Shown: piece by piece, positions 12,150 through 54,857 of the stretch
How the letters are laid out: every line of letters begins with the position of its first letter
How positions within the stretch are numbered: the first letter of the stretch is position 1
Program-made: the position numbers and the translations under genes
The notes under the pieces: generated by a model
What the model was told of the DNA's origin: nothing
What the model saw: the letters and a program-made list of their open reading frames with translations, nothing else
Database searches by the model: none
Origin: Opisthorchis felineus
Lineage: Eukaryota; Platyhelminthes; Trematoda; Opisthorchiida; Opisthorchiidae
Assembly: GCA_004794785.1 (NCBI GenBank)
Contig: SJOL01005868.1
Location: 88,116-152,115, forward strand
Direction of reading: 5' to 3'
Length of the DNA stretch: 64,000 nucleotides

Positions 12150-13247
12150 TCAAGTGTTGGGCGCAGCGAGTTTATTCGGGCCAGCTCGCCAGTGTACTTT
12201 TGCACAGTGGCCACCATGACCGGCATCGTTGTCTTGCTGTTGCGGTTAAACCGGCCTTGCATTGTCCTTGTGGCTTTGTCTGGTCGGGATGGCAGGTAGC
12301 CCGTTGGCTTGCTTGTGGCTTGCTGCAGGCGTTCGGTCCTCGGGTGTAATCAGCTGACCACATCGGTTATGTGCATTATGTCGGAGACGGTAACTTGTGA
12401 TGTGCGCGTGTGTGCCAGTTGGTCGGCTTGTACGGCTCCGCTTTTTTATCTGCCTGTGTTCGCAGGCTTAATGTTATCTCGGATTCGTTCGGTCGGCGGT
12501 TGAGTTCATGTCACTATTTCCAGGACCAATAGTCGGTGGTAGACTATCCACCTAGCCCGCCTTGAAACACGGACGAAGGAGAGTAACACGTGCGCGAGTC
12601 AGTGAGCACAACAAAACCAGAAGGCAAAGTGAAAGCGAAGCTCTGACTTGTCTGGACTGAGTGAGATCCTGTCGTGCTTCATGCTTGGTATCAACAAGCA
12701 TCGAGCGCCAGCGCATCACTGGCTTATCCCATGGTGTGATGATCCCATACAGAGTTTGTAATCAGGGCCGAGCATAAGCGTACATGTTAAGACCCGAAAG
12801 ATGATGAACTATGCTTGCGCAGGTTGAAGCATGAGGAAACTCTGGTGGAGGACCGGAGCAATTCTGACGTGCACATCAATCATCAGATGTATGTGTAGGG
12901 GGAAAAGACGAATCAAACCATCTAGCAGCTTGTCCCTTCCGAAGTGTCCCTCGGGAAAGCTGGTGTTCATAGTTTTCAACAGGTTTGTCCGGTAAAGCGA
13001 ATGACTAGAGGCCTTAAGAGAGGAACTTCCTCAACCTATTCTCAAACTTTGAATGGGTGAGAAGCCTGACTCGCCCAAACGGAGTCAGGCGTTGAATGTG
13101 AATGCCAAGTGGGCCATTTTTGGTAAGCAGAACTGGCGCTGTGGGATGAACCAAACGTTCGGTTAAGGTGCCTAACGCGACGCTCATCAGATACCACAAA
13201 AGGTGTTGGTTGGTCTAGACAGCAGGACGGTGGCCATGGAAGTCGGA

Positions 13248-13280
<33 letters not shown>

Positions 13281-14311
13281 CCAAAAATTGGATGCTGCTG
13301 GAGTGTCTGAACTATACCGGACCGTCACTGCGAGCTGAGTCGGTAATGTGTGTTGGGGGGGCAGGTCACAGGACTCAGGCAAGGAATTGTGGTGGTGTGT
13401 ATAAGGGTTGCCGTGGTGGGCAGGAAGCTTCGGGCGTGGGTCTGAGTGGGGCCGCCACGGGTGCAGACGTTGGTGGTAGTGAAAAGTACTCAAGTGAGAA
13501 CCATGGGTCAGGCGGTCCTAAGTGATCCGTTAACTCGGAACAGAGACGGGGTGCCTGACATTGTCAGGATTGCTGCTGATGTACCGTTGCAAGGCAGCCC
13601 CCTGTAGCGAAAGGGAATCGGGTTAATATTCCCGACCCTGCCCACGGAGATTGGTGCATTCTGGTCTCGCACCGGTTTGCATCTAGCGCGGTAACGCAAC
13701 CGACCTCGGAGACGTCGGCAAGAGTTCTGGGAAGAGTTCTCTTTTCTTTATTAGGAGTGCATCATCCCCTGGAATCGGGTTGTCCGGAGATAGGGGACTA
13801 GCCTCCGTAAAGCACCACATTTCTTGTGGTGTCCGGAACGCTCTTGTCGGCCCTTGAAAATCCGAGCGAGGCAATATAATTTTCGTGGCAGGCCGTACCC
13901 ATATCCGCATCAGGTCTCCAAGGTGAACAGCCTCTGGCAATTGAACAATGTAGGTAAGGGAAGTCGGCAAACTGGATCCGTAACTTCGGGAAAAGGATTG
14001 GCTCTGAGGGCCGAGTCAAATGGGCTGGAGTCAGATACGTGTTGGTCCAGTTGGAGGCTGGTTTTTCTGTTGCTGCGCCCGCTTCGGTGGATGTGGTTGA
14101 TGGGATTACTGGACTCTGACCAGGCCGATCGTGGGCGATTTCAGCTGTAGTGCTGCTTTGCTGGCAGCGTGCACGGGCAACTGTGTGCGTGTCGACGGCT
14201 TTGCTTCCTTCGTTTGGCGCTCAACGGCTAGCTCAGAACTGGCACGGACCAGGGGAATCCGACTGTCTAATTAAAACCAAGCATTGCGATGTCCGCTGAC
14301 CGGTTTTGACG

Positions 14312-19244: not shown

Positions 19245-19577
19245 ACGGTCCGCAAATGTAGTGCGTAACGAATTAGCATCGGTCACGCGGAAATTGCGAG
19301 CGTATAAGCTGTGGGTTTAAAAGCGGACCACCGAATAAAGTCAGATAAACATAAGATGAATGGTCGTTAGTCTGTTCGCAGAGCTGGGCAAGTTGATTGC
19401 AAAACGTTCACCACCAATCGATAAGACAACAGCAGTGTGCTTTTAGAGGGCTCAGTGGACCAAAACGATGGTATTCTGGTTGTGTGATTCGGCCATGTGA
19501 GTCTTCGGTCAGGTTGATACATTGCGCTATGAAGCACAAAGTATAGAAACAGGTAAGCCTGCCGAGCGAATTCATAC

Positions 19578-20317
19578 TTGTATCCTTTACCACAAGCGTC
19601 TATCATGCACAGTGGACAATCATCTGCCAAGCCACTAAAAAATTATACCAGCGTGGACGAGAAAACAAATCGCGCCATATTAGGCTGCGAACCAGAGAAC
19701 CCGCGAAATTTATCTGTTCACTCAAGAAACCTCGGCAGTCCGATAACTTCTGAGAAAAACGGAAATGTACTCAAATGTTCCGTTTGCGGCAAATCATTTC
19801 GCTTCTTCTCACACTTGCGGGACCACTCCGCAGTGCACTTAAACGACCGTGATTTCTGGTGCCACGTATGCCAAACACCAAACCAGTACTTCCACAGTCG
19901 ACACCAGATAAGGTCTCATCCAGAACAGGCTGCGGTAGACACCGGAGAATCAGTGGATAACGGCTGTGTCCGGAGTGTGGGAAATGTATAAAAAGAAGTG
20001 CCAATCTATGGATTCATGAAGAAACCATACATGGAAAATACGAACAGCGCACATGCGAGCTATGTGGTCACATTTTCAGTCAGAAGGCAAAATATTTCAG
20101 GCATCTGAGAAAGATGCATGGACAGGAGGTTTTCTACAAATGTGAGCATTGCAGAACACTCCGTCTCACCTCACCAGAGCTAGAAGCTCATTTGACGAAA
20201 AGGCACAATGCGCGTTTTGAGGAACTTGTATCAATATGTGTTGGACTGCTCAATAAATATTCGGTTTTATGTGTACTACAGATTCTAATTATTTTGGACG
20301 TACTTCCCCAGATTTGA
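19578..20317 (+). pseudogene. C2H2 zinc-finger protein gene, five fingers, one frameshift
   Basis: Five consecutive zinc fingers are readable. Finger 1 (CSVCGKSFRFFSHLRDH..., about 19776) and degenerate finger 2 (CHVCQTPNQYFHSRHQIRSH) are in the frame that opens at 19578. A one-base shift near 19970 moves to the frame holding three canonical fingers: CPECGKCIKRSANLWIHEE, CELCGHIFSQKAKYFRHL and CEHCRTLRLTSPELEAHL. Each of the three has C-X2-C-X12-H-X4-H spacing. A 41-residue hydrophobic tail follows, ending at the stop 20315-20317. Proteins of this kind bind DNA in the nucleus. The frameshift and the damaged second finger suggest a recent pseudogene, although a single sequencing error could mimic the shift. 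The paralogue at 46579-47060 shares the finger order and linkers. The last finger and tail are duplicated 1050 bp downstream. Confidence 0.85.
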
Positions 20318-20430
20318 ACTTATCGAATCAGCCATCAGTGTCCTTAGTTCTGTGGTAATTCTGGGAGGAGTCCTGCGCCTAAATTCTCAATAGATTTTAT
20401 GCCTAAAGTGTTTTAACTGGGTTTTTCCCG
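20137..20430 (+). repeat. direct repeat, copy 1 (last zinc finger and 3' flank)
   Basis: This segment is repeated at an offset of exactly 1050 bp. From 20137 to about 20350 the copies differ at only a few positions, and the match runs past the stop codon, so it is a DNA duplication and not protein conservation. From about 20360 to 20430 ungapped identity falls to roughly 60%, then fades. Confidence 0.9.
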
Positions 20431-21186
20431 GCTTCGACTAGCGTTTCAAACAAAAAATGTTACAAAGCAGGTCAGGAAGAACCTAGTTACTACCAGATTT
20501 AATTCCCTATATAGCTACGTTTTCGTGCTGTAAGTAAAATATACATCGAAAGCATAATTACGATGGTGGTAACCACTCAGCTGACACCCAACGAAGCTTG
20601 GCGTACTATGCATAATAAGGCAAAATTTTCCGCGCAAAATTTTCCAAGTCACAATCAGTCTTATCAAGTGAATGTGAGCGATGGGTTCTGGACGGTTAAA
20701 CGAGAGAAGCTTGTAGTAGACCGGATAAAAGTCTTGAATTAGCGAGCGAATAATTGGACGTGAGGTAAAACTCGTGCTGATTAGTGAATACCCAAATCGT
20801 ATTGTTAACTCAGATGGGGTCTTTCGATTCTCTCAAAGGTTGGGTTGCGCTCGTTTGCTTGCTAAGCTGGGAAGCATGGGCCGAGGCAGAAACGTACCCC
20901 ACCTAGACAAACCAAAGTTCACGACAAATGAGACATTTTACGAGACCAGGCGAAGCTGTATTCGAACAAGCCGTAAATCGCTTTCTGGATGCAAGTTAAA
21001 CAAGAAAACAAAGCGTGATTCAGGTGCTAATCTAGCGAATGACTTAATTCAAGTAACAAAGAGGGTCGAATCTATGTTAAACCATCAAAGTAAGGCAAGC
21101 TACCATCCGAGTTCGAAACATGTGTATTGAGTAGTGTGAAAAATTCTGAACTAGAATTCCGCAACCCACTGTGACAGCAACTACTG
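20431..21186. other. sequence between the two repeat copies
   Basis: Holds a 118-codon plus-strand frame (20774-21130) rich in Lys, Arg and Ser, with no domain I recognise. It might be a decayed exon of the zinc-finger gene or a chance frame. Confidence 0.3.
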
Positions 21187-21480
21187 CAAATGTGAGCATT
21201 GCAGAACACTCCGTCTCACCTCACCAGAGCTAGAAGCTCATTTGACGAAAAGGCACAATGCGCGTTTTAAGGAACTTGTATCAATATGTGTTGGACTGTT
21301 CAATAAATATTCGGTTTTATGTGTACTACAGATTCTAATTATTTTGGACGTACTTCCCCAGATTTGAACTTATCGAATCAGCCATCAGTCTCCTTAGTTC
21401 TGTTGTAATTTTTGGAGGAATGATGTGTCTATCTTCAATTTGGGTGTCATGCCTAGAATGCTGTCATCTGGTTGTTTCTT
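21187..21480 (+). repeat. direct repeat, copy 2 (isolated last zinc finger)
   Basis: Begins at aaatgtgag (about 21188) and re-encodes the fifth finger CEHCRTLRLTSPELEAHL plus the hydrophobic tail, stop included (21365-21367). Changes from copy 1 include Glu to Lys after the finger and Leu to Phe in the tail. The sequence upstream of 21181 is unrelated to copy 1, so this is a truncated 3' duplicate with no other fingers and no start. Confidence 0.9.
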
Positions 21481-24400
21481 TTTTCCAAAACCATTGCGAC
21501 CAAAATGTACGATGGCATGCAACCTCACCCTGCAATTCGGAAGGAACGCAGTTTAATACAGATATAATTCCTTCGAGAGCAAATTGTGTGTGCTCTAGGT
21601 GAAATGTACATTAAAATCTTACTTATGAGGGTTGTTGCCACCCAGAATTTACACAGCGCACTACATGTGGGATGGTGAAACTTTCGGCGTAAAATTCAAA
21701 AATTTCGTTCAGTATTTTTAGATGAACATAAACCATTGAATGTTGTGAAACCATTCAGTTAGGTAGAAAGGCCAACAGCAAAGGTTAAGAGTGCACGGGT
21801 TAGGATAACCATAATACAATTCAGAAGGTGTATGTACTAATAAGGCTTTACTGTGGTTAACAGTAGTTTACAGAAGCGAGTTGCACGATTTATAAAATAA
21901 AGACAATATGAAATGTGGAGCAAGTCAAAGGGGAACTTATCGCTTGTAAGAGTCCTTTGGTGAAAGTCCGGACTGCGGGAACGTGTTTTCTTCGCAATAT
22001 AGCTGCTACGTGTGGTCCATAATTGTTCGTAGACTTCTGGAATTTGGCTAACTCCTTTCTCCCTGCGCGCGGGTCTGTGTGTCGTGACTGTGTTGTGTCT
22101 TCCTATATTTAGGAAGGTGTGACATGTGTATAATACCCGGAATCGTTCCGGTGCGTACAAGACGGGAACTGACTTGTTTTCGGTCAAGGTTGCGAGCGGG
22201 ACAGTTTGTCACGTGATTTGAGCGCTTGTGGAGCAGGCGAGTCGCGTGATCTAGTGAACACGGATGTACTAGACAGATTAAGTGAAGTTGGTTGAGGGAT
22301 CGTGGTAATGTCCGCTACAACATCGCTTAGTCATTTGGATGTAAATGGCTGCCGAATTCCAGATCATGTTCCATGGGCTTGAAGTTGCGGACACTTTTCT
22401 GGAAGACCGGCAGCTTGTTGGATATCACATTGTTTCGCTTGAGAGCGTTTGTACGAGGAACGCTCACAGGAATCCCAATGTCTTTGCGTGTCGTCTGTCG
22501 AGTGCCTCGTTGGGTAACTAATATGTAATTTCCAACGCAAACTCGCAAATGGTTATGCAAGTGAGGCTCGAAGTAGCACAGAGAAATTTGCTCTGCACAT
22601 GCAAACAAGCATTGCGAGGTGACCTGAAACTCAAGCTATGATATCCTTAATCATGCTGGTAACTCAGGTTGGTTGCTTTGCTTCGCTTGGTGGACGGGTT
22701 CCGTGTGTATTCTTGCCAATCAAGGCGAAATTGTTCCATTCACGTTGTAAAGGGGAGCATTAGAAGAGGAGCACAGGTTGTTCAAACACCTGCAGCAGCC
22801 GGGGAGCAGCGCAGAACGCTTAGGCCAACAAAATTTCTGGAACGTTGAGTTAGTATGCGGGCTAGGACGGAACTGCTTTGAGGCAAGTCCTAAATAGTGC
22901 ATTGAATGCAAGATGCGCAGTCGGTTCAACGCAAGGGTTGCATCAAAAGGTAAACTAGCCGCTCACTGGAAGCACACAGAAGTTATTGTCACGGAAACTG
23001 CAAAGTTTCTGAAGTTGTGACTTTTCCGAGAAGTTAGTCTAACCAGTTTGCCCCTTTCAGTGATATGTCGCTCATGGCATTTTGTTTAACTGAGCGATAT
23101 TTCAAGGTCATGGACCGTCATTGATTCTCATCTTGTTAACGGTTTACGAGAGACATATATCACGAAATCGCACTTTAGCATATTTGGCGTTCTTCGGGGA
23201 TCTTTAAGAATGAGATAACACCTACAAAATATCCTCTGTAAATTCGATCCAGCTGAATCGGTCAGTGACGTTTGTTTGCTTTATGCTCCTCAGATTTATC
23301 AAATGAGATGAGGTTGTTCGGCGAACTTCGGCACAGCTCGACTTATAATAAATATAACAGTGCAAGAAAACTGCATGAATTGTGCAGGGCGATGCGAGGG
23401 CAATCTCTGTGGATGATACCCTTTCCCAGATATGCATAACTAGCCTAAAGATGCTTCGGCTTCACACTCCACAGGTGGACTAAGTCACAAAGGGCACATA
23501 TAACGATTGCAACTAAGGGGATTCATTGCCTGTCACCATGATAACGTTAGCCGATGCCACTCACCTTGGCTACTTATCGTAAATGGTAGGCCCGTGTCCA
23601 TGTGCAGCATTGATTATGAGGATACAGCTATTTATACACATAAATGTACGCAAATCGCAGATTCGGGCACCGACCTGATCTGTTGCAATACGTTCAGTGC
23701 TAGTACAATCTCCAAGATACGCTGTTAAGCTGCACATTATTCTTCCAAGAACACTATGGGTAGGCAGGCAACAGACTTGTCTATTTACAGACAAGAGTGT
23801 ACTCCGCGAACAAGGAGTTGAGTTGCGTAACTGCGACAAAGAACAGTCATATGGTAAGCCAAATCTATCGTCAGACTCATAGACCAAAATACACGGAATT
23901 AAAGGGAAAACTGGGACATGTGAAACGTGCAGGGGTGGAGGGCCAAGTGCACAGTGGGTGAGCCTGGCACAAGTTTAGCTTGTTTGACAACAGAAAAATG
24001 ATACCTCACATCTGATTCAAGGTATGAAAAACTGAGCTTAAACTTACGGCGATTTTGGGCGCACAAAGTCTTCCCCGAGCCGAATAGTACAAAAACCATA
24101 ACCGGAATGTTCGTTGCAGTGAACGTCTGTCTCAGATACGTTGGCATTAGTGTACTTCCGCCTTTTATGTGACTCTCGGTAATAGCGACCCCGGCACGCA
24201 TGCGTATATGATTTACCACTAGAAGGGACGTGGTACTCGTTGAACAATCAGGGCAGTGCAGACATATCGACTGGGCTCTCGAACAAGTGCAAAGAATCAA
24301 TAACACAAATTGACGAGAAGGGACAGCAATACTTGAATTTACAATGCCACAAATGGGTGAAGGCAGAGCGGGAAGAGGAATTGAGGTTAATAGTGCCAGG

Positions 24401-28299: not shown

Positions 28300-28430
28300 A
28301 AATGGTTAAGCAAGTACATCCGGCGAGTTTCATTGACAGTAAACTGATAATGATTTGCACCCACTTGCTGAGGTTCAAGAAATACAAAACCGGTCGTGGG
28401 CAGTCGAAGAGTATTCGGTGAACCCATTGA
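28300..28430 (+). ncRNA. decayed hammerhead-ribozyme repeat copy
   Basis: This stretch aligns with the hammerhead repeat at about 38000-38125. The cleavage half ccggtcgtgggc (28390-28401) is identical, and 5-bp stem I is perfect (cccac 28360-28364 with gtggg 28396-28400). The catalytic core is broken: the position of CUGAUGA reads ttgctga (28365-28371), stem II no longer pairs (28372-28385), and GAAA is AAAA (28386-28389). Over the 43 nt from stem I through the cleavage site I count 32 identities with the intact copy. It is an inactive relic that shows the ribozyme belongs to a dispersed repeat family. Confidence 0.6.
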
Positions 28431-35200: not shown

Positions 35201-37999
35201 TTTCTCACCAGGACATTTGTCATCGTGAAAACGTCTAACAAAACTCACTTTTAAATCTCATCTAAGATGGGCTGTTTAAACTACATTGTCCAAACAAACG
35301 AGTGCTTGGTAATCGTAGGTTGTATCTGGCCTGTTACCTGATTACATGTAAATTTTGTTCGTGGACTAGGTTTGTATAATGTTCAAGCAACGACAGCGTC
35401 GTTGGGCATATCTCACCAAGAGTTGAAGGGTTCTCCATGATGAAAATGTGGGGTTCAATGGTTGGCACTACAATACGCAGCTCAAATTTCGCACCTTCTA
35501 CATGAAATCACCCGAAAAATGCTTGAGACTGGCTATTTTATTGGAGAGCTCTTCTGCCAGTAACCATTACCCGATTAGCTCTAGGATGATATCGAGAAGT
35601 TTATTTGAAAATTTGACCGATGGACACAGGTCATTTATGATTGAAGACAACATTCACGCACTCTATCGTCTCGACAGCTTATATGCCACATGGCCTGCGT
35701 TCTTCAAACATCACATTAACTGTTACGATGATTACACGGAATAACACTTCTGCGGGTTCGAGAACAAAGGTTTCTACACCCTAGCAGTGGATACCAGGAA
35801 CAAGTTAAATAGGTGAGTTATGCGTTTATTTTGCGTCAAATATTGTATTGTAGGCTATAGTAGTTTCACAATTCACTATAACCGAAAAGCTACCAGTAAA
35901 CGTTGTTCATTCTAATCGACTCATATTTTCCGCCCAGTTGGAATACTTCATTTAATTAACTGTTCTTTCGCAATTCCAGATATATATTAATCTTGAGATT
36001 TTGCTCACTTGAACAAATTGTACATACGGAGAACTTTCAAGCAAACAGATTTGGCTCAAAGTATCCTCCTGTTTGGGAGTGATTCCATCGAACGAAATCA
36101 TTAGATTTTCAGTTAATGAGTGCATAGTGCCCTTCTATGGAATGTCAAGTTCTATCGTTTCTTGCTGCGACCGTTAGCAACATCCACGTTACAACCCTGA
36201 TATTCCGGTTTTATATTTGCTCCCAGGTATCACTGGACCTTGAAATACCCTCGTATGATATCAGAAACACTTGAAGGCCGAGAGATTTAGCCACCCAGGA
36301 TCTTGAGAGTTAGTAACTGTTCAATGTTGCATAAGAAATGAATATACAGACATTCTTTCTGCGTTAAAATAATCAACATTTTCTCGGCAATGCGCGTTGC
36401 TCAAATACACGTTTCGGCTCATGGTTTGTGTGGAGGGTGAAAGAGCTACATACGAAAGTTAAATTCTTTTTACCGTATATCAGTCTAGCCAAGTTGCAGG
36501 TGGTTGCTTGCCATCAGTTACTTTGGCAATTGGGGTTTGGAAAAGAATGACCGAAGCCTGTGTTCTGCGACGTGTGTAGTATGTAACCATGGAATACTTT
36601 GCCCGAAATGTGCCATGTGTGCGGCCGTTTGGGCATGAGATGAAACTTTTTAGGTCGCTTTCCAGTCTTAAGCGTTCAGTGCATGGGTGCGCAATCCGTG
36701 CCTATGATAAACAGGTAATATGGCTTTCGGTTGTAGTGTGAGAAGATTCGAGGTATATTAGTCAAGAAATTGTCCAGTGGTTTAAGCCAATACATTCTGG
36801 GAGGCCGGGAAGACTGTACCGATGTTTATTCTTTGTGGCGATCCATCAGCAAAGTTCATCAGACAAAACTCCGCAATGTTTGAAACATTGATGTTGAGGC
36901 TACAATTTCCAAAACCTAACCGTTTGTGCTGGATTGGATACAGAACGGAGTGATTAGGTAGCGCTTAGACAGGTTACTGAATGATGCAACCATTACCCGG
37001 AAATTCCAGACCACACATCTATCGGCGTGACAAAAAATGCATCACGTTTGGCGCATCAGAAGCGTGCTGAAAGGTGACTACTACACTATTTTTCTAATGG
37101 AAAGCATGGTATGGGGATCACAACTTAGACCGCCTGGAATTATACAGAAAATATTGAAGATCTCATAGGGAAGGTACTCTGGAAAACACTCTAGACCCCA
37201 CCACAATCACGTGTACGCACGGTGACACAGCTGGGTGACAATGTAAAGTACATAGTGCACAAATAAACCTTGCACAAACGAATGGACCATATTCTTCTTC
37301 ATGGAACCATATTACTTTTCAAAACTAGATAGAAACCACGTGTATCAAGAGCAGCCCGATGTCCCAAAAATTTAGGTGCCCACATTAACTCTGTCGACAA
37401 TATAGACCACAGAATTTTAGCCAGTTACTTCGCAACTACTGAGAAGCTGTTTGCCGCCCGGTCTTAGATTCTAGGTGCTTGCTTTGATCCAAGCAGACGT
37501 CACCCAAAAAAAGTTTCCATCGTTCACTGACAACGCGTTTGCAGATTTCGTGCTCATCTCACCCGAAACTTTCCACCGGAAAGGTTCACCATGGGAGCAG
37601 GTGTGCTTGGCTTGAACTACCTGCGGTTCATTATGGCGCCACGTTTTCCACATCTACTGTTCCACTGCCTAAAGAGGCGGATACCCTCTGTTACTGAATA
37701 GTTTTTACCAGGATATCATGAGCAAAGCCCGCGGTTGTTTATTTTTCTTAGTCTGGGTATCCGGCTTCCTAGACGCGACCAAGCCAACAAAGCCTGTTTC
37801 GGGCAGCTGGCGAAGAAAGCCTTTCAAGAAAGCCTTTCCTTCATGAAAATATACCGCGATATCTCGAATATCGTACCAAATGAAACATGAGGCGGCCTGT
37901 GTGCAGTACATTCAGTTGAAGAACTTCATAAAAGAGAGACTCACTCGAGTCTCCCGTGAAAAACAAATTGATTTGCAAATGAGTGTATTTGTCGAAATC
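32274..37999. other. no firm gene; faint transposase-like stretch
   Basis: The first 100 bp are probably the 3' UTR of the R2-like element. The rest is unassigned. Near 36780-37080 a GRP-like motif followed by LLNDATITRKFQ and a Lys-rich stretch faintly recalls a Tc1/mariner transposase, but no DDE motif can be read. A (CA)5 run is at 34131-34140, and a perfect 7-bp hairpin (gagactc/gagtctc) is at 37935-37952. Confidence 0.35.
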
Positions 38000-38130
38000 A
38001 GTCCAATTTGGGTTCAAGTAGAACATAAGGTTGACGGAAACTCGGGGACTGAGCCTACCTGATGAGCCCCAAGAAGGGCGAAACCGGTCGTGGGCTGTCG
38101 AAAAGTTTTCAGCAAACTTGTGAGTAGTTT
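38000..38130 (+). repeat. dispersed repeat carrying the hammerhead (SINE- or Penelope-like)
   Basis: Homology with 28300-28430 extends beyond the ribozyme on both sides: upstream through a ttgac...aaact block and a ggttcaagta motif (38008-38018) that resembles a weak RNA polymerase III B box, and downstream through gtcgaa.ag.ttc. The ends of the element are not visible and no target-site duplication was found. Known carriers of metazoan type I hammerheads are Penelope-like elements and SINE-like repeats such as the schistosome alpha repeat; which applies here is unknown. Confidence 0.6.
38052..38096 (+). ncRNA. type I hammerhead ribozyme, complete core
   Basis: All conserved parts are present in order. 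Stem I 5' strand agcctac (38052-38058) pairs with gtgggct (38090-38096): 7 bp including one G-U. CUGAUGA is at 38059-38065. Stem II is gccc (38066-38069) with gggc (38076-38079) around the six-base loop caagaa. GAAA is at 38080-38083. Stem III is the self-complementary ACCGGU (38083-38088). The cleavage nucleotide is C at 38089, so self-cleavage would occur between 38089 and 38090. Because stem III closes on itself without a loop, a single molecule would fold poorly; such short-stem hammerheads act as dimers or in multimeric transcripts. The RNA would cut its own backbone by transesterification, processing transcripts of the repeat. No protein gene is linked to it. Confidence 0.88.
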
Positions 38131-38171
38131 CCTTCATGAAAAAAACCTTTCAAGCTTTACGCACAAGATTT

Positions 38172-38220
38172 GACGATTGGTTTGGGGAGTAGCAAAAATT
38201 AAAAGCACACACCAATCGTC
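38172..38220. repeat. 10-bp perfect inverted repeat downstream of hammerhead
   Basis: gacgattggt (38172-38181) and accaatcgtc (38211-38220) are exact reverse complements separated by 29 bases. They lie 76 bp after the ribozyme and could form a stem-loop in the same transcript or mark the end of a small element. Confidence 0.75.
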
Positions 38221-41200
38221 GAATTTGTCAAAAAGGTGCCTGATTGTTACGGTGGTCGTTAGTTTTTTCACTGAGTCAGGAAAATTCGATGCAGGCACTT
38301 CGGCTTCAGGTAAGGTGCCATCATTAGTGCGTTATGCCCGAAAGAGAGCTGAAGTAAGAAGTGCTCAATTGTTATTAATGAAACAAAATTATTAGTGATT
38401 AGATAAACCAAGTCTATGGGCTTATGGCATGCGCTAGCCAACTTCATGTATCAAAATATCTTTGGAGCGTAAAATAAATCAAATATGTCATTATCGATTG
38501 CCCAACACTGTCCACCTATTGGCAGCTGCGGAAGTCGTAAATTTTGATTTCACCTGTCCCTTTTGAGCATCTGTCCTTGTATTCTGCCCGAGTTATTCTA
38601 GTGAGTTCACTTTAAGACGGCAAGCAGTGGGATCAAGTTTTGCTTCCATCACAACTCGTCGGCGGCGAGACTTCTGCGTGATTCCGAGGCCTGAACTCCA
38701 GAAATTAGAAATGCTATGCTAGTGTGTTATTCCTAGTCCGGCAGAGCAAGCTGGTTAAGCATTGGTGATCACGCTTCAACAGGCGAACAAATTTACACTG
38801 ACGCTCTCAACATGTGATACACAAGTTGGTAAACACGTGCTTCTAGAGAGCTTGGGTTAATTTGGCTCGTCAAAAATTTAATCTCCCGTGTGTACGTCTG
38901 CCGTGAATTGGAAAGGTTTACCCAAGTGCGGAACGACATGTTTTTTCATAAAAATCTATTCACACCGAAGGCGGCAGAGGATTAAAAATCATGACTGGTA
39001 CCAGTCCATTAACAAGGCACACTAGAACTCTCTCTCTCATGACCCATAGAACTGGGAGTTATATTTGAAACACTGAATACATGGATGCGCCACACAAGCG
39101 ACGGAAATAAAAAGTATTAAAGGAGTTGAAAATGTTGCCACGTGCAGCCCCAAAATGCATCAGCATGGAAGTCGTTTATACATCAAGGTAAGTGCCCAAC
39201 CCAATGTTGGTAGCATAACCGTTTAGTAAATCATACACCATAAACCGTCCGTAAGACGGTCTAAATGTAAAAGCAGGCAGCTCATGTAAATCCCTCACTG
39301 AAAAAACACATCGGTCCATATAGACTTAGGTAGGCGATACGCTGTTACGCAGGGACCCCCTGAAAGTAAAGTGAATATTTTCCGCGCACAAACGATATAA
39401 TTTATCAGAGCGTTTTTGCAAATTATCAGCCGTGATTACACCATATTGCTTTTGAATGCTTTTGAGAAGTTGTAAATTGGAGACTAGGTTCATTCTTGTT
39501 ATCTCTGCAGCGCAATTGGCTGTCTATGAAGATATTTAAAATATTTTGTTCCGCAAGTTACCAAACAGTGGAAGTTACAGAAGCATTCAATAGGCCTTGA
39601 TTCACCAATGCTAGTTTACGTTTATGCCAGTGCTTGGTTTGGCATTCACCTTATGAATGAGAGTAGTGATCAGCGAATAGCGAGCGCTCTCGGTTTGTCT
39701 GTTAGTAGAGAAACCTTTCAGAGAACATAGGTCGACGTTTTGGGTCCACCCTGCTCCAAACGATGTAAAAATGCGTCGCACCTTTTATATTGGTTTGTGA
39801 CAAAATTGGGTGCTGGTTCTACCGGAACGACGAAAAATGTCACTTGTACCCGGAAAGATAGCACTGTCCGTAGAAACTGAGGATCAGACTGGACAAGCAA
39901 GCTACCTAGAACCGAGACAAATTCAGTGAGAATATGAAAGCTCCCGTTACTTTGTCCCAACTCATCGGCGTTGTCAGCGGGGACCATTTGCACTCTATCC
40001 GAGCACTTCTGATGCTGGCTCCCATTCGGCCTTCCCCCAACTTGCCAATCCGAAGAATTTACGCATATCATTCTCCGGAATGAAACATTTCTGATAATAC
40101 GCCAAACAGCGTCTTTATCTGTGCACTTCGCAGTCCGCTCAAGCATGATTCGAGTGAAATGAAATTTAATTCGTCCCTATTACTTTTCAACTTAGTCGGG
40201 CGGTTCCGATGTGAAGTCAAAGTTTGCGAATATTCTCCTTTGAAACTTTCAGCCCCCAATGAGCAACCCTTTAACGTTTCGCCTTCTCTTTTGATGTCCA
40301 AGACATAAGGGCCTGAGGCAAAACGGTAATTTCCCAATACACGGGAACGAAAAACGGGGCCATTAGACCAACAAGCTGGATCAATTATTACTAACTTGGT
40401 CAAGCGCTCGGTACTTTTTGCCTGGGAACCTAGGCCCTTTAAAGGAAGAAAACATTGGCATTGAAGGAAGCAGTGAGAGGAATTTTGCCACTGAAATAAA
40501 AAGCATTAAGGTGACCAATGATTGAAGAAAATCTGGTGACTGACTCAACCACCTCGAGTGCGGTTGTAAATAATCCTTTCTGAATTTAATGGACAGAATC
40601 TAAGCGACACGTGAGAATTACAGACAGCGAGGGAGTTAATCGGTTACGACTGCCTGATAAAGTCCGATGATACCACAAACACCTGCACTATTGCAAAATA
40701 ACGAGGTCACACTAACAACCATCTCGACCACGATCAGTAGTTTAACCAACACGGTTAAGTAGAGAATAGGAAATTAAGTTGACGGGTGACACGAATAACG
40801 TCCAGTGGGGGAAACTTACAGTCCTCGCGAAATAAATCACAGATTAAAGACTACACGTATTACTCCCGCGAGTACAATCTGCGGCTCAAATAAGGTCCGT
40901 GCTGTTAATCCACATTCCGAGGAAGTATTTGATATTTGGCAGCCTAATTCAACGATAACAAAGCATTTCTTTACCATTTCAAACTGTTTTAATTCGTACT
41001 AGGTAAATGGTATCTCGTGGACGACTTTTCAGGCAAAGCTTGGTGTAAACTGATTCAAAAATTCAGGTGACGCGTGAAAGGATTACTTAAGTTTGGTTGT
41101 CGCTGGAATAAAAGTAGAGGCAATATGAACGCAAAAGTCCACAAAATTGTGTTATCACATTGGATGGGTGATTGGAGGGGGCAAGCGTTGACGACTGGCA

Positions 41201-52689: not shown

Positions 52690-53692
52690 CTTCGACGATA
52701 TTGTAGTATACACGCCTTTGAAGCACCAGGAAACAGTGATTCTTCGGAAAAAGGGTTTCACAACAATTTCTGCGGATGCAAAAGAGGAAGAAAGATCACG
52801 AGCCGAAGCCTAGTAATAAGAGCTGTACAACGCTAATACCTGCGTATAAATCAAACAAACTGGCACCCCTTTTGAAGAAAACCGTCCCAGGTGTACCATG
52901 GCCTACGTGAACTTGTTAGTGTTAGTGGTGTCTTGCTTGAGACTGGTGGTCGTCTGCAGAGGTTGCTGATCAGGGGGCTGTGTCAGCCGGTAATCGGTCG
53001 GCAGCCAGTGACAGATCTAATGGGTGTTGTGCAGCACAATGAGGATTATTCATCCTTCTAGTGAGGAAGTTCTCTTAGGTATAGCAGCTTTCGCAGCTAC
53101 GCGTGTGCGTCTACCGCAACATGTGCTAAAAATGGAAAAAACGTGAACCCACGTACATCGCGTGCTCATTTGAAGATGATGCCTAATTGATTTTTGGGTC
53201 AACAAGGTGAACGTTAAGTCTGGACATTAGGGAATCGAAACGTGTTGCATATGTATGATGGGACCTTATGAGGACGAAGCATGGAGCACATCGTCTTTCA
53301 AGGATCAGCCAATTGTGTTGTCCTCAAAAAATTTTCGAAAACCCTGCTTCTACAAAATTGGTGCAATTGGTTTGGGTTTGTTGTCTGATCCGGTCAGTAA
53401 AGCAGTGCTACTTTGATATGGTATACGGTGGCTATTTATAAAGTCTTCACGAACTAGGAACCTCATAAACCTAAAGGACGCAAACCACTGAACATTTTGG
53501 ACAAGATATCACCAAATAAATCAATTTTGCACACACTTATCAGCACGCTGACGATCTGGGATTTCTGGAGAATTGAACAACACTTTCGTTCTGTAACTGA
53601 AGTCAAGCTGGGCAACAAACATGGGAGAAAAGCTATGAATTTGTCTCTTCCCCACTGCAAATCATCGGTATCCGAAGAATTTCTGCGGAGGT
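52690..53692 (+). repeat. tandem duplication, unit 1; possible topoisomerase II exon
   Basis: This block recurs at an offset of 1140 bp near its start and 1200 bp near its end. Its first part encodes an open stretch KHQETVILRKKGFTTISADA followed by KEEE (about 52715-52810), which resembles the KGLGTSTS-AEAKE segment of eukaryotic topoisomerase II. That segment lies upstream of the part found at 55.4 kb, so order and strand are right. The second part (52989-53692) is long, well conserved between units and unidentified; both units share a stop in the frame before MDKISPN (53497). A 35-bp imperfect direct repeat (52956-52990 and 53684-53718, around gaggttgctgat) brackets that second part. Confidence 0.7.
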
Positions 53693-53825
53693 TGCTGATT
53701 CTGGGGCTGTGTCAGCCGTGTGTGCTTGAGCAACGTGTTGGAACTGAGATATATATGCACATTCGTGGAACCAGAGTCCCTCTGGTAGATCCAACGGTGT
53801 GTGGCAACCATCCTGGCGTGGTCAC

Positions 53826-54857
53826 GGAATATACGGTATGCGCTCTATCGAAGCATCAGTGGACAGTGATTTTCCGGAAGTAGGGTTCACGACAATTTAT
53901 GTGCCTATCAGTGTGACCTGTTCGTCCGAGGTACTAAACGATGGCTCAGTAACCTCCTCGTCACACACTCAGCAACTAAAACGTGGATTTTAACTGTTTT
54001 TCACTATAGACCTAATAATAATGGGAAAATTTATTTTAGTTCGAGGAAAACATTTATTAGCACCGGGTGTTCATAAGGTGTTCAAGCGGTTTTTATTTGA
54101 TGAATTGAAGAAAATGATTCAAGCACCACGTGTACCTTGATATTAGGTGAATTTTAAGATAGTGTGCTTTGAGTTCTGGCTATATCTCGGTAATCAGTTG
54201 GCAGCCAGTGGGGTGTGATTGACAGATCTAACGGGTGTTTTGCAGCACAATGGGGCTCTATTAGGTATAGCAGTATTCGTAATATGCGTTTGCGTCTACC
54301 GCAACATGTGTTAAACAATGAGGAAAAACGTGAAACCACATACATCGAGTGCTCATTTGGAGTTGGTGGCTAAATGATTTTTGGGTCAACAATGTGAACG
54401 CTATGTCTGGACATAACGTATGTATGATTGGACCTATGGGGACGAAACATGGAACGAATCGTTTTATAAGGATCAGTCAACTGTGTTGTCCTAAAAATTT
54501 TTCGAAAAACCTGCTTCTACAAAATTGGTGCAGTTGGTTTGTGTTAGTTGCCTGGTATGGTCAGTACAGCAATGCTACTGTCACATGGTATACGGTGGCG
54601 ATTAATGAGGTATTGGTGAACTAGGAACCTCAAAAACCTGAAAGAGGCAAACCATTGAACAATTTGGATAGGATGTCGCCAAATAGCTCAATTTCGCACA
54701 CAATTACCAGCACGCTGATGAACTGGGATTTTCAGAGTATTGAACAACACTTTCGTTCTGCAAATGAAGTCAAGCTGAACCACAAACATGGGAGGAATGC
54801 TACAAAACTGTCTCTTCCTCACTGTAAGTCTCCGGTTTCTCAAGAACTACTACGGAG
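53826..54857 (+). repeat. tandem duplication, unit 2
   Basis: Counterpart of unit 1. It contains the EYTVCALSKHQWTVIFRK version of the first part (53829-53882), then a stop where unit 1 reads through, then the second part (54189-54857) with MSPNSSISHTITSTLMNWDF, IEQHFRSANEVKL and LSLPHCKSPVSQELLRR. Similarity to unit 1 ends just after cggag (about 54857); the following 54 codons are unique to this copy and open to 55020. I do not recognise the protein family of the second part, and it may be non-coding. Confidence 0.7.

Follow-up and report, generated by a model that had tools for sequence, protein, structure and literature searches.

Is the hammerhead ribozyme predicted in this window a real one, and what kind of element carries it? 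The window, by which we mean the whole stretch of 64,000 nt analysed here, corresponds to G000:C843:88116-152115 in a genome assembly of 630 Mb and 1,848 contigs. The first-pass annotation had placed a complete type I hammerhead in a dispersed flatworm repeat. A flatworm host, more precisely a digenean fluke, is probable, as the only protein match of a zinc-finger frame in the window is to Opisthorchis felineus (46% identity over 88%). No match to mitochondrial COX1 was found in the 630-Mb assembly. In our reading, which we hold to be highly probable, the window contains one copy of a dispersed non-LTR retrozyme of the metazoan type, with the cycle proposed below.

A hammerhead with a loopless third stem

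The core positions and the base pairs of stems I and II are all present in the sequence as the first-pass annotation gave them (Table 1). A substitution at 38052 forms an A-U pair in the window copy where the reference unit has a mismatch, and stem I therefore has seven pairs in the window and six in the unit. Across the genome there are 1,624 exact copies of the 42-nt ribozyme (796 forward, 828 reverse), which supports the placement in a dispersed repeat. The reversed control pattern gave 0 and 0 copies, so that a chance origin is excluded. On the other hand, the bare core pattern is uninformative alone, being found three times in the window against 1.57 expected and reaching three in 23 of 100 shuffles. 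The hammerhead at 38052-38096 is real.

Table 1. Features of the window copy and of the arrays (window positions; q, unit positions; L, loci elsewhere)
Feature	Position	Strand	Description
Retrozyme copy	37835-38142	+	308 bp, or 1.05 of the 293-bp units; q39-293, then q1-53
Possible 5' target-site repeat	37826-37838	+	AAGAAAGCCTTTC; by eye; imperfect, 11/13 with the 3' repeat
Possible 3' target-site repeat	38139-38151	+	AAAAAAACCTTTC; by eye
Hammerhead ribozyme	38047-38099	+	Stem I, stem Ib and stem II; predicted cut 38089/38090
Stem I	38052-38058 with 38090-38096		AGCCUAC with GUGGGCU; 7 pairs, including one U-G
Conserved core	38059-38065, 38080-38083, 38088, 38089		CUGAUGA, GAAA, U16.1, C17
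Stem II	38066-38069 with 38076-38079		GCCC with GGGC; 4 pairs; CAAGAA loop
Stem Ib	38047-38049 with 38097-38099		GAC with GUC; 3 pairs; extends stem I past a UG bulge
Palindromic stem III	38083-38088	+	ACCGGU, no loop; a second ribozyme would be its only expected pairing partner
Decayed second copy of the ribozyme region	28352-28424	+	CUGAUGA and GAAA lost
Flanking direct repeat	L020		10 bp
Flanking direct repeats	L052, L054, L058, L061		13 bp each
Flanking direct repeat	L048		9 bp, three inside the element on one side
Flanking direct repeat	L060		16 bp, partly common to the element's end
Loci with diverged edges	L049, L050, L051, L053, L054, L055, L058, L062, L063, L064

In a search of 601 bases around the ribozyme, the Rfam model RF02275 (Hammerhead_HH9) matches 38049-38105 at 36.6 bits (E 1.2e-7), below its gathering score of 52 bits, and at gathering no hammerhead is matched in the full window. 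The first-pass annotation had named a covariance-model score below threshold as grounds for giving up the ribozyme, and such a score is what the check returned. However, the cut-off is not decisive for this ribozyme, because it also misses every hammerhead in the arrays of identical units at L052 (~11.6 units) and L061 (~9.8 units). A gathering cut-off can thus overlook a ribozyme with more than 1,600 perfect copies if the third stem forms only in a dimer.

The third stem is where the description as 'complete', with 'three compatible helices', fails. Only CCGG (38084-38087) lies between GAAA and U16.1, which leaves no bases for a hairpin loop, so that stem III cannot close within one molecule. 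Folded freely, the 53-nt monomer reaches -19.7 kcal/mol with a mispairing of ACC and GGU that runs through the core, against -17.1 kcal/mol for a structure with stems I, Ib and II only. The minimum of the two-copy cofold is a double hammerhead joined via ACCGGU (-43.5 kcal/mol). We rejected this dimer energy as evidence, as an equal gain occurs in 181 of 200 shuffles. When a two-unit transcript was folded without pseudoknots, the misfold persisted. Given the missing loop and the dimer cases in the portions of the literature drawn on here (PMC6155905, PMC7761336), activity of the predicted ribozyme probably needs two copies. Judging by its sequence, the window insert, with a single ribozyme in 1.05 units, can hardly produce circles by itself.

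The repeat unit and its copies across the genome

Unit positions are counted from q1, the first base after the ribozyme cut, which is window position 38090. The window copy differs from the array units by 10 substitutions and is 96-97% identical to units elsewhere (nhmmer E 3.5e-89); its body is 37839-38138 if the imperfect target repeat is counted as outside. The claim that it is the one element that looks functionally intact holds for the window. It does not extend to the genome, where the array units are identical and the ribozyme is one among 1,624. The decayed second copy is 75% similar over 64 nt and 77% over 57 nt (nhmmer E 8.8e-8).

Directly before the insert, AAGAAAGCCTTTC stands twice as a perfect tandem 13-mer (37813-37838, first copy 37813-37825), equal in length to several array target repeats. 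The window also holds part of a eukaryotic LSU rRNA gene at 12573-14245 (+), matched in two pieces by Rfam RF02543 (model 665-2120 of 3401), incomplete at both ends and isolated among other sequence. Two pairs of direct repeats, at 20134-21483 and 53137-54792, are 84-88% alike and 1.05-1.19 kb apart; the former pair adjoins zinc-finger-like frames at 19557-20317.

By searching the genome with window 37800-38400, we found at least 245 matches, with 40 of 5,745 candidates scored. Most of the matches listed follow one another head to tail at an exact period of 293, and they occur on both strands of many contigs. The unit at L058 belongs to a subfamily of about 307 bp, and a period of 307 also occurs at C14. 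The 293-bp unit has a GC content of 45.4%, and its circular fold reaches -90.9 kcal/mol against -68.1 (sd 5.0) in 50 shuffles. In the regions 37.5-40.5 and 27.9-30.9 kb, the three plus-strand frames contain no Pfam domain above its cut-off, the sole trace being a weak CxC1 match (E 0.045). Scans of the unit for A and B boxes gave 9-10/11 matches at several places, none of them prominent.

Conservation of the ribozyme between subfamilies is mixed. In the L058 unit, none of 31 mismatches falls in the 53 ribozyme columns (P 0.0014), and in an L064 unit 4 of 24 do (P 0.55). A genome pattern with a 10-base gap, where the ribozyme has 12, found 13 sites against 1 in the control; the arrays lie outside this pattern, and several loci behind the 13 sites contain older retrozyme pieces.

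The search named 39 loci, and the sequence was read for 20 of them and for the window copy (L018), 21 in all; L021-L047 overlap loci already read and were not counted again. Across contigs, 77 of 85 full units in the 21 loci, window copy included, are 100% identical to the reference unit. The largest array, L065, spans 12.1 units. The core pattern is passed by 113 of the 134 ribozyme-spanning matches in the loci read.

Array ends, flanking repeats and the proposed cycle

Three loci with N at or right after the 3' end (L049, L053, L062) were dropped, leaving 18 without an assembly gap there. In 15 of these, including the window copy, the 3' end falls in q46-61 or q194-207, ranges that were drawn after the 18 ends were known. 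None of the 18 ends lies within 9 nt of the ribozyme cut. The boundaries are partly set by hand: the strict end of L057 is q25, and that of L060 was placed at q53 with q58, common to the target, as the alternative. We notice that 11 of the 21 loci carry a head-to-head inverted piece, whose outer end lies inside the same two ranges in seven cases (P 2.7e-5 against an even spread). Two further inverted ends are close (q39, q44), and the misfits are L020 (q165) and L062 (q284, near the cut). Here, too, some ends were set by hand (L020 at q165, BLAST q171-174; L049 at q199, BLAST q207). These ends are most simply explained if reverse transcription begins within a circular or multimeric RNA and uses identical start sites for the two target strands. 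An ATGAGT motif at both 3' hot spots was not significant, occurring in 1,775 of 2,000 shuffles of the 293-bp unit and 950 of 2,000 of the L058 unit.

In 7 of the 20 loci read, the insert is bordered on both outer sides by direct repeats of 9-16 bp, and an acceptable repeat is absent in the other 13. The 13-nt match at L018 reflects an overlap between the unit's own termini and was excluded from the target repeats, as were matches of 9 bp at L056 and 8 bp at L064 that lie off the boundaries. At L019 a 6-bp repeat was seen by eye, and the scripted measure fell on an older neighbour piece. In five of the repeat-flanked loci (L020, L048, L052, L060, L061), all pieces between the repeats are 96-100% like the unit. 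These include L052, where the 13-bp repeat encloses 11.55 units together with an inverted 52-nt piece, and L061, with 9.84 units and an inverted 51-nt piece. Because they are uniform in all pieces, one-step insertion is indicated: the five look like single insertions, of up to ~11.6 units in one step.

On the other hand, edge or inverted pieces are only 74-95% like the unit in 10 of the 21 loci, whose inner units are identical, and L054 and L058 are flanked by 13-bp repeats yet have such diverged edges. One insertion does not explain these ten loci, and fresh units must therefore enter older copies later, by insertion or exchange.

We propose the following cycle. An array would first be copied into RNA by read-through transcription; as sequence and folding suggest, neighbouring ribozymes would pair through ACCGGU and then cut. 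The released unit would be ligated into a circle, as in published retrozymes. Reverse transcription may then be primed at the cut target from one of two internal RNA sites, and several rounds of the circle per cDNA could deposit one to about twelve units per insertion. At times, a second, inverted cDNA would start from the other target strand, a step modelled on the observed ends and repeats. Later insertion into old copies, or exchange of units, must also be at work. If the cycle is right, the sites at which cDNA starts can be read from fresh identical arrays, and the insertion of some complete arrays is probably a single event.

Two other origins for the repeat have to be weighed against this cycle. 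It may be a plain tandem satellite, with the hammerhead as a passenger, in which one or two inserted units were multiplied on the spot through unequal exchange or gene conversion. The ten loci with identical inner units and diverged edges are what local homogenising would produce, but inner units are identical between contigs and not merely within them, the five repeat-flanked loci are uniform, even L052 with its long array and inverted piece, and the 3' ends gather at two sites; we therefore regard a satellite as improbable. It is more improbable still, and hardly to be expected, that the repeat is a piece of a Penelope-like pseudo-LTR with a minimal hammerhead and not an independent element. 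A loopless stem III is described for the ribozymes of Penelope-like elements in the part of PMC7761336 drawn on here, and such elements are plentiful in this genome. However, units abut units with no coding part between them, the plus-strand frames at 37.5-40.5 and 27.9-30.9 kb hold no Pfam domain over the cut-off, and the unit resembles the six GIY-YIG loci weakly, at best 64% over 101 bp, outside the Penelope-like part of L068. The retrozyme cycle is the reading that we carry forward.

Candidate movers

A GIY-YIG search of the genome gave six matches, three of which (L068, L069, L071) translate into decayed Penelope-like elements. Pieces of L069 match RVT_1 (E 6.2e-6, under the Pfam cut-off) and GIY-YIG (28.6 bits, over the cut-off), and in this one case the ends carry a 12-bp direct repeat, with an inverted piece of the element's own 3' region lying 25-30 bp away. 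By searching with a piece of the L069 endonuclease, we obtained 150 matches from the 150 scored of 3,759 candidates. Among the matches listed, 19 score 155.7 bits and 17 score 227.5 bits, and three of the latter lie in 858-aa open frames. From these equal-scoring copies, some with 858-aa frames, it follows that young, open Penelope-like elements exist in the genome. Endonuclease matches also lie in open frames of 5323, 4871, 4497 and 2254 aa (C733:253801, C1498:563186, C366:115326, C1588:308377). These frames exceed one element and are perhaps tandem elements joined in frame.

Near the 3' end of L068 (- strand), L069 and L071 we observed the motif CTGATGATGTC..GATGAAA, at ~2167, 2157 and 2171. 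It resembles a hammerhead core but, as we read it, departs from the usual one, and Rfam gave no hammerhead match in the three loci. The motif TCAGC(G)AAC, common to the retrozyme and the Penelope-like elements, appears in 1,050 of 2,000 shuffles and is not significant. No significant sequence is common to the unit and these three copies.

We tentatively consider that Penelope-like proteins move non-LTR retrozymes, cutting both strands, starting at the two internal sites and circling round the template. Duplications of ~13 bp and head-to-head inverted starts might conceivably result, as might arrays that reach ~12 units in one step. The hammerhead could, on the same uncertain footing, make the circle and not be used as the end of the template. 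That inverted pieces and edges in many cases predate the inner units lowers the odds of a Penelope-like mover. LINEs show 5' truncation, 5' inversions and flanking repeats of such size. A LINE acting by target priming, with twin-primed 5' inversions, is a possible mover in place of a Penelope-like element, though we would stop short of calling it probable; these general traits fit it. Against it, poly(A) or a simple repeat is not seen at the array 3' ends, and the seven of 11 inverted outer ends at the 3'-end sites are unneeded by twin priming. Which of them is the mover can now be tested, by asking whether young Penelope-like or LINE copies end as the arrays do.

Comparison with known systems

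The comparisons below draw on excerpts of the papers cited. The open-access papers searched on retrozymes in Platyhelminthes and on hammerheads in Opisthorchis yielded nothing on this repeat. We found an intact core, a tandem unit within ~150-450 bp, GC below 50%, a non-coding sequence and flanking repeats above 4 bp, features expected of a retrozyme. The 293-bp repeat is very probably a metazoan non-LTR retrozyme, a new member of a kind already known from many animals. Metazoan non-LTR retrozymes likewise have a type I hammerhead, units of 170-400 nt in tandem copies, GC below 50%, a non-coding and strongly self-paired sequence, and flanking repeats above 4 bp (Cervera and de la Pena 2020, PMC7229834; PMC7761336), and platyhelminths are named in general among their hosts (PMC7229834). 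The two preferred internal 3' ends and head-to-head inverted starts of the present arrays go beyond the excerpts of both papers drawn on here, and the word 'inverted' is absent from PMC7229834. Section 9 of PMC7761336 states that retrozyme repeats bear no motif pointing to an autonomous mover.

The schistosome Sm-alpha and Sj-alpha SINE-like repeats are also short flatworm repeats with a type I hammerhead (PMC6155905, PMC8490949). The stem III loop is absent here, unlike in those repeats, beside which ours is set by description and not by sequence. In most invertebrate type I hammerheads helix III is stable and cleavage takes place in the monomer (PMC7761336), which sets the loopless palindromic stem III apart from them. 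A weak or missing stem III is known from the hammerhead repeats of newt and axolotl, which cut as dimers (PMC6155905, PMC7229834); those hosts are vertebrates, and the likeness is again one of description, not sequence.

Penelope-like elements share with our arrays the tandem copies, head-to-head inverted ends, a hammerhead motif, short flanking repeats and, as proposed here for the arrays, reverse transcription starting inside the RNA on both target strands (PMC3846280, PMC11167929). The Penelopes of Adineta carry pseudo-LTRs in inverted orientation, with repeats of 8-10 bp (PMC3846280), and Anolis PAc in vitro cuts and extends both target strands, starting inside its own RNA (PMC11167929). 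Unlike the non-coding 293-bp unit, these elements encode a reverse transcriptase and a GIY-YIG endonuclease. Relative to the excerpts of the published accounts drawn on here, our findings add an invertebrate case of a stem III without a loop, and the anatomy of the insertions.
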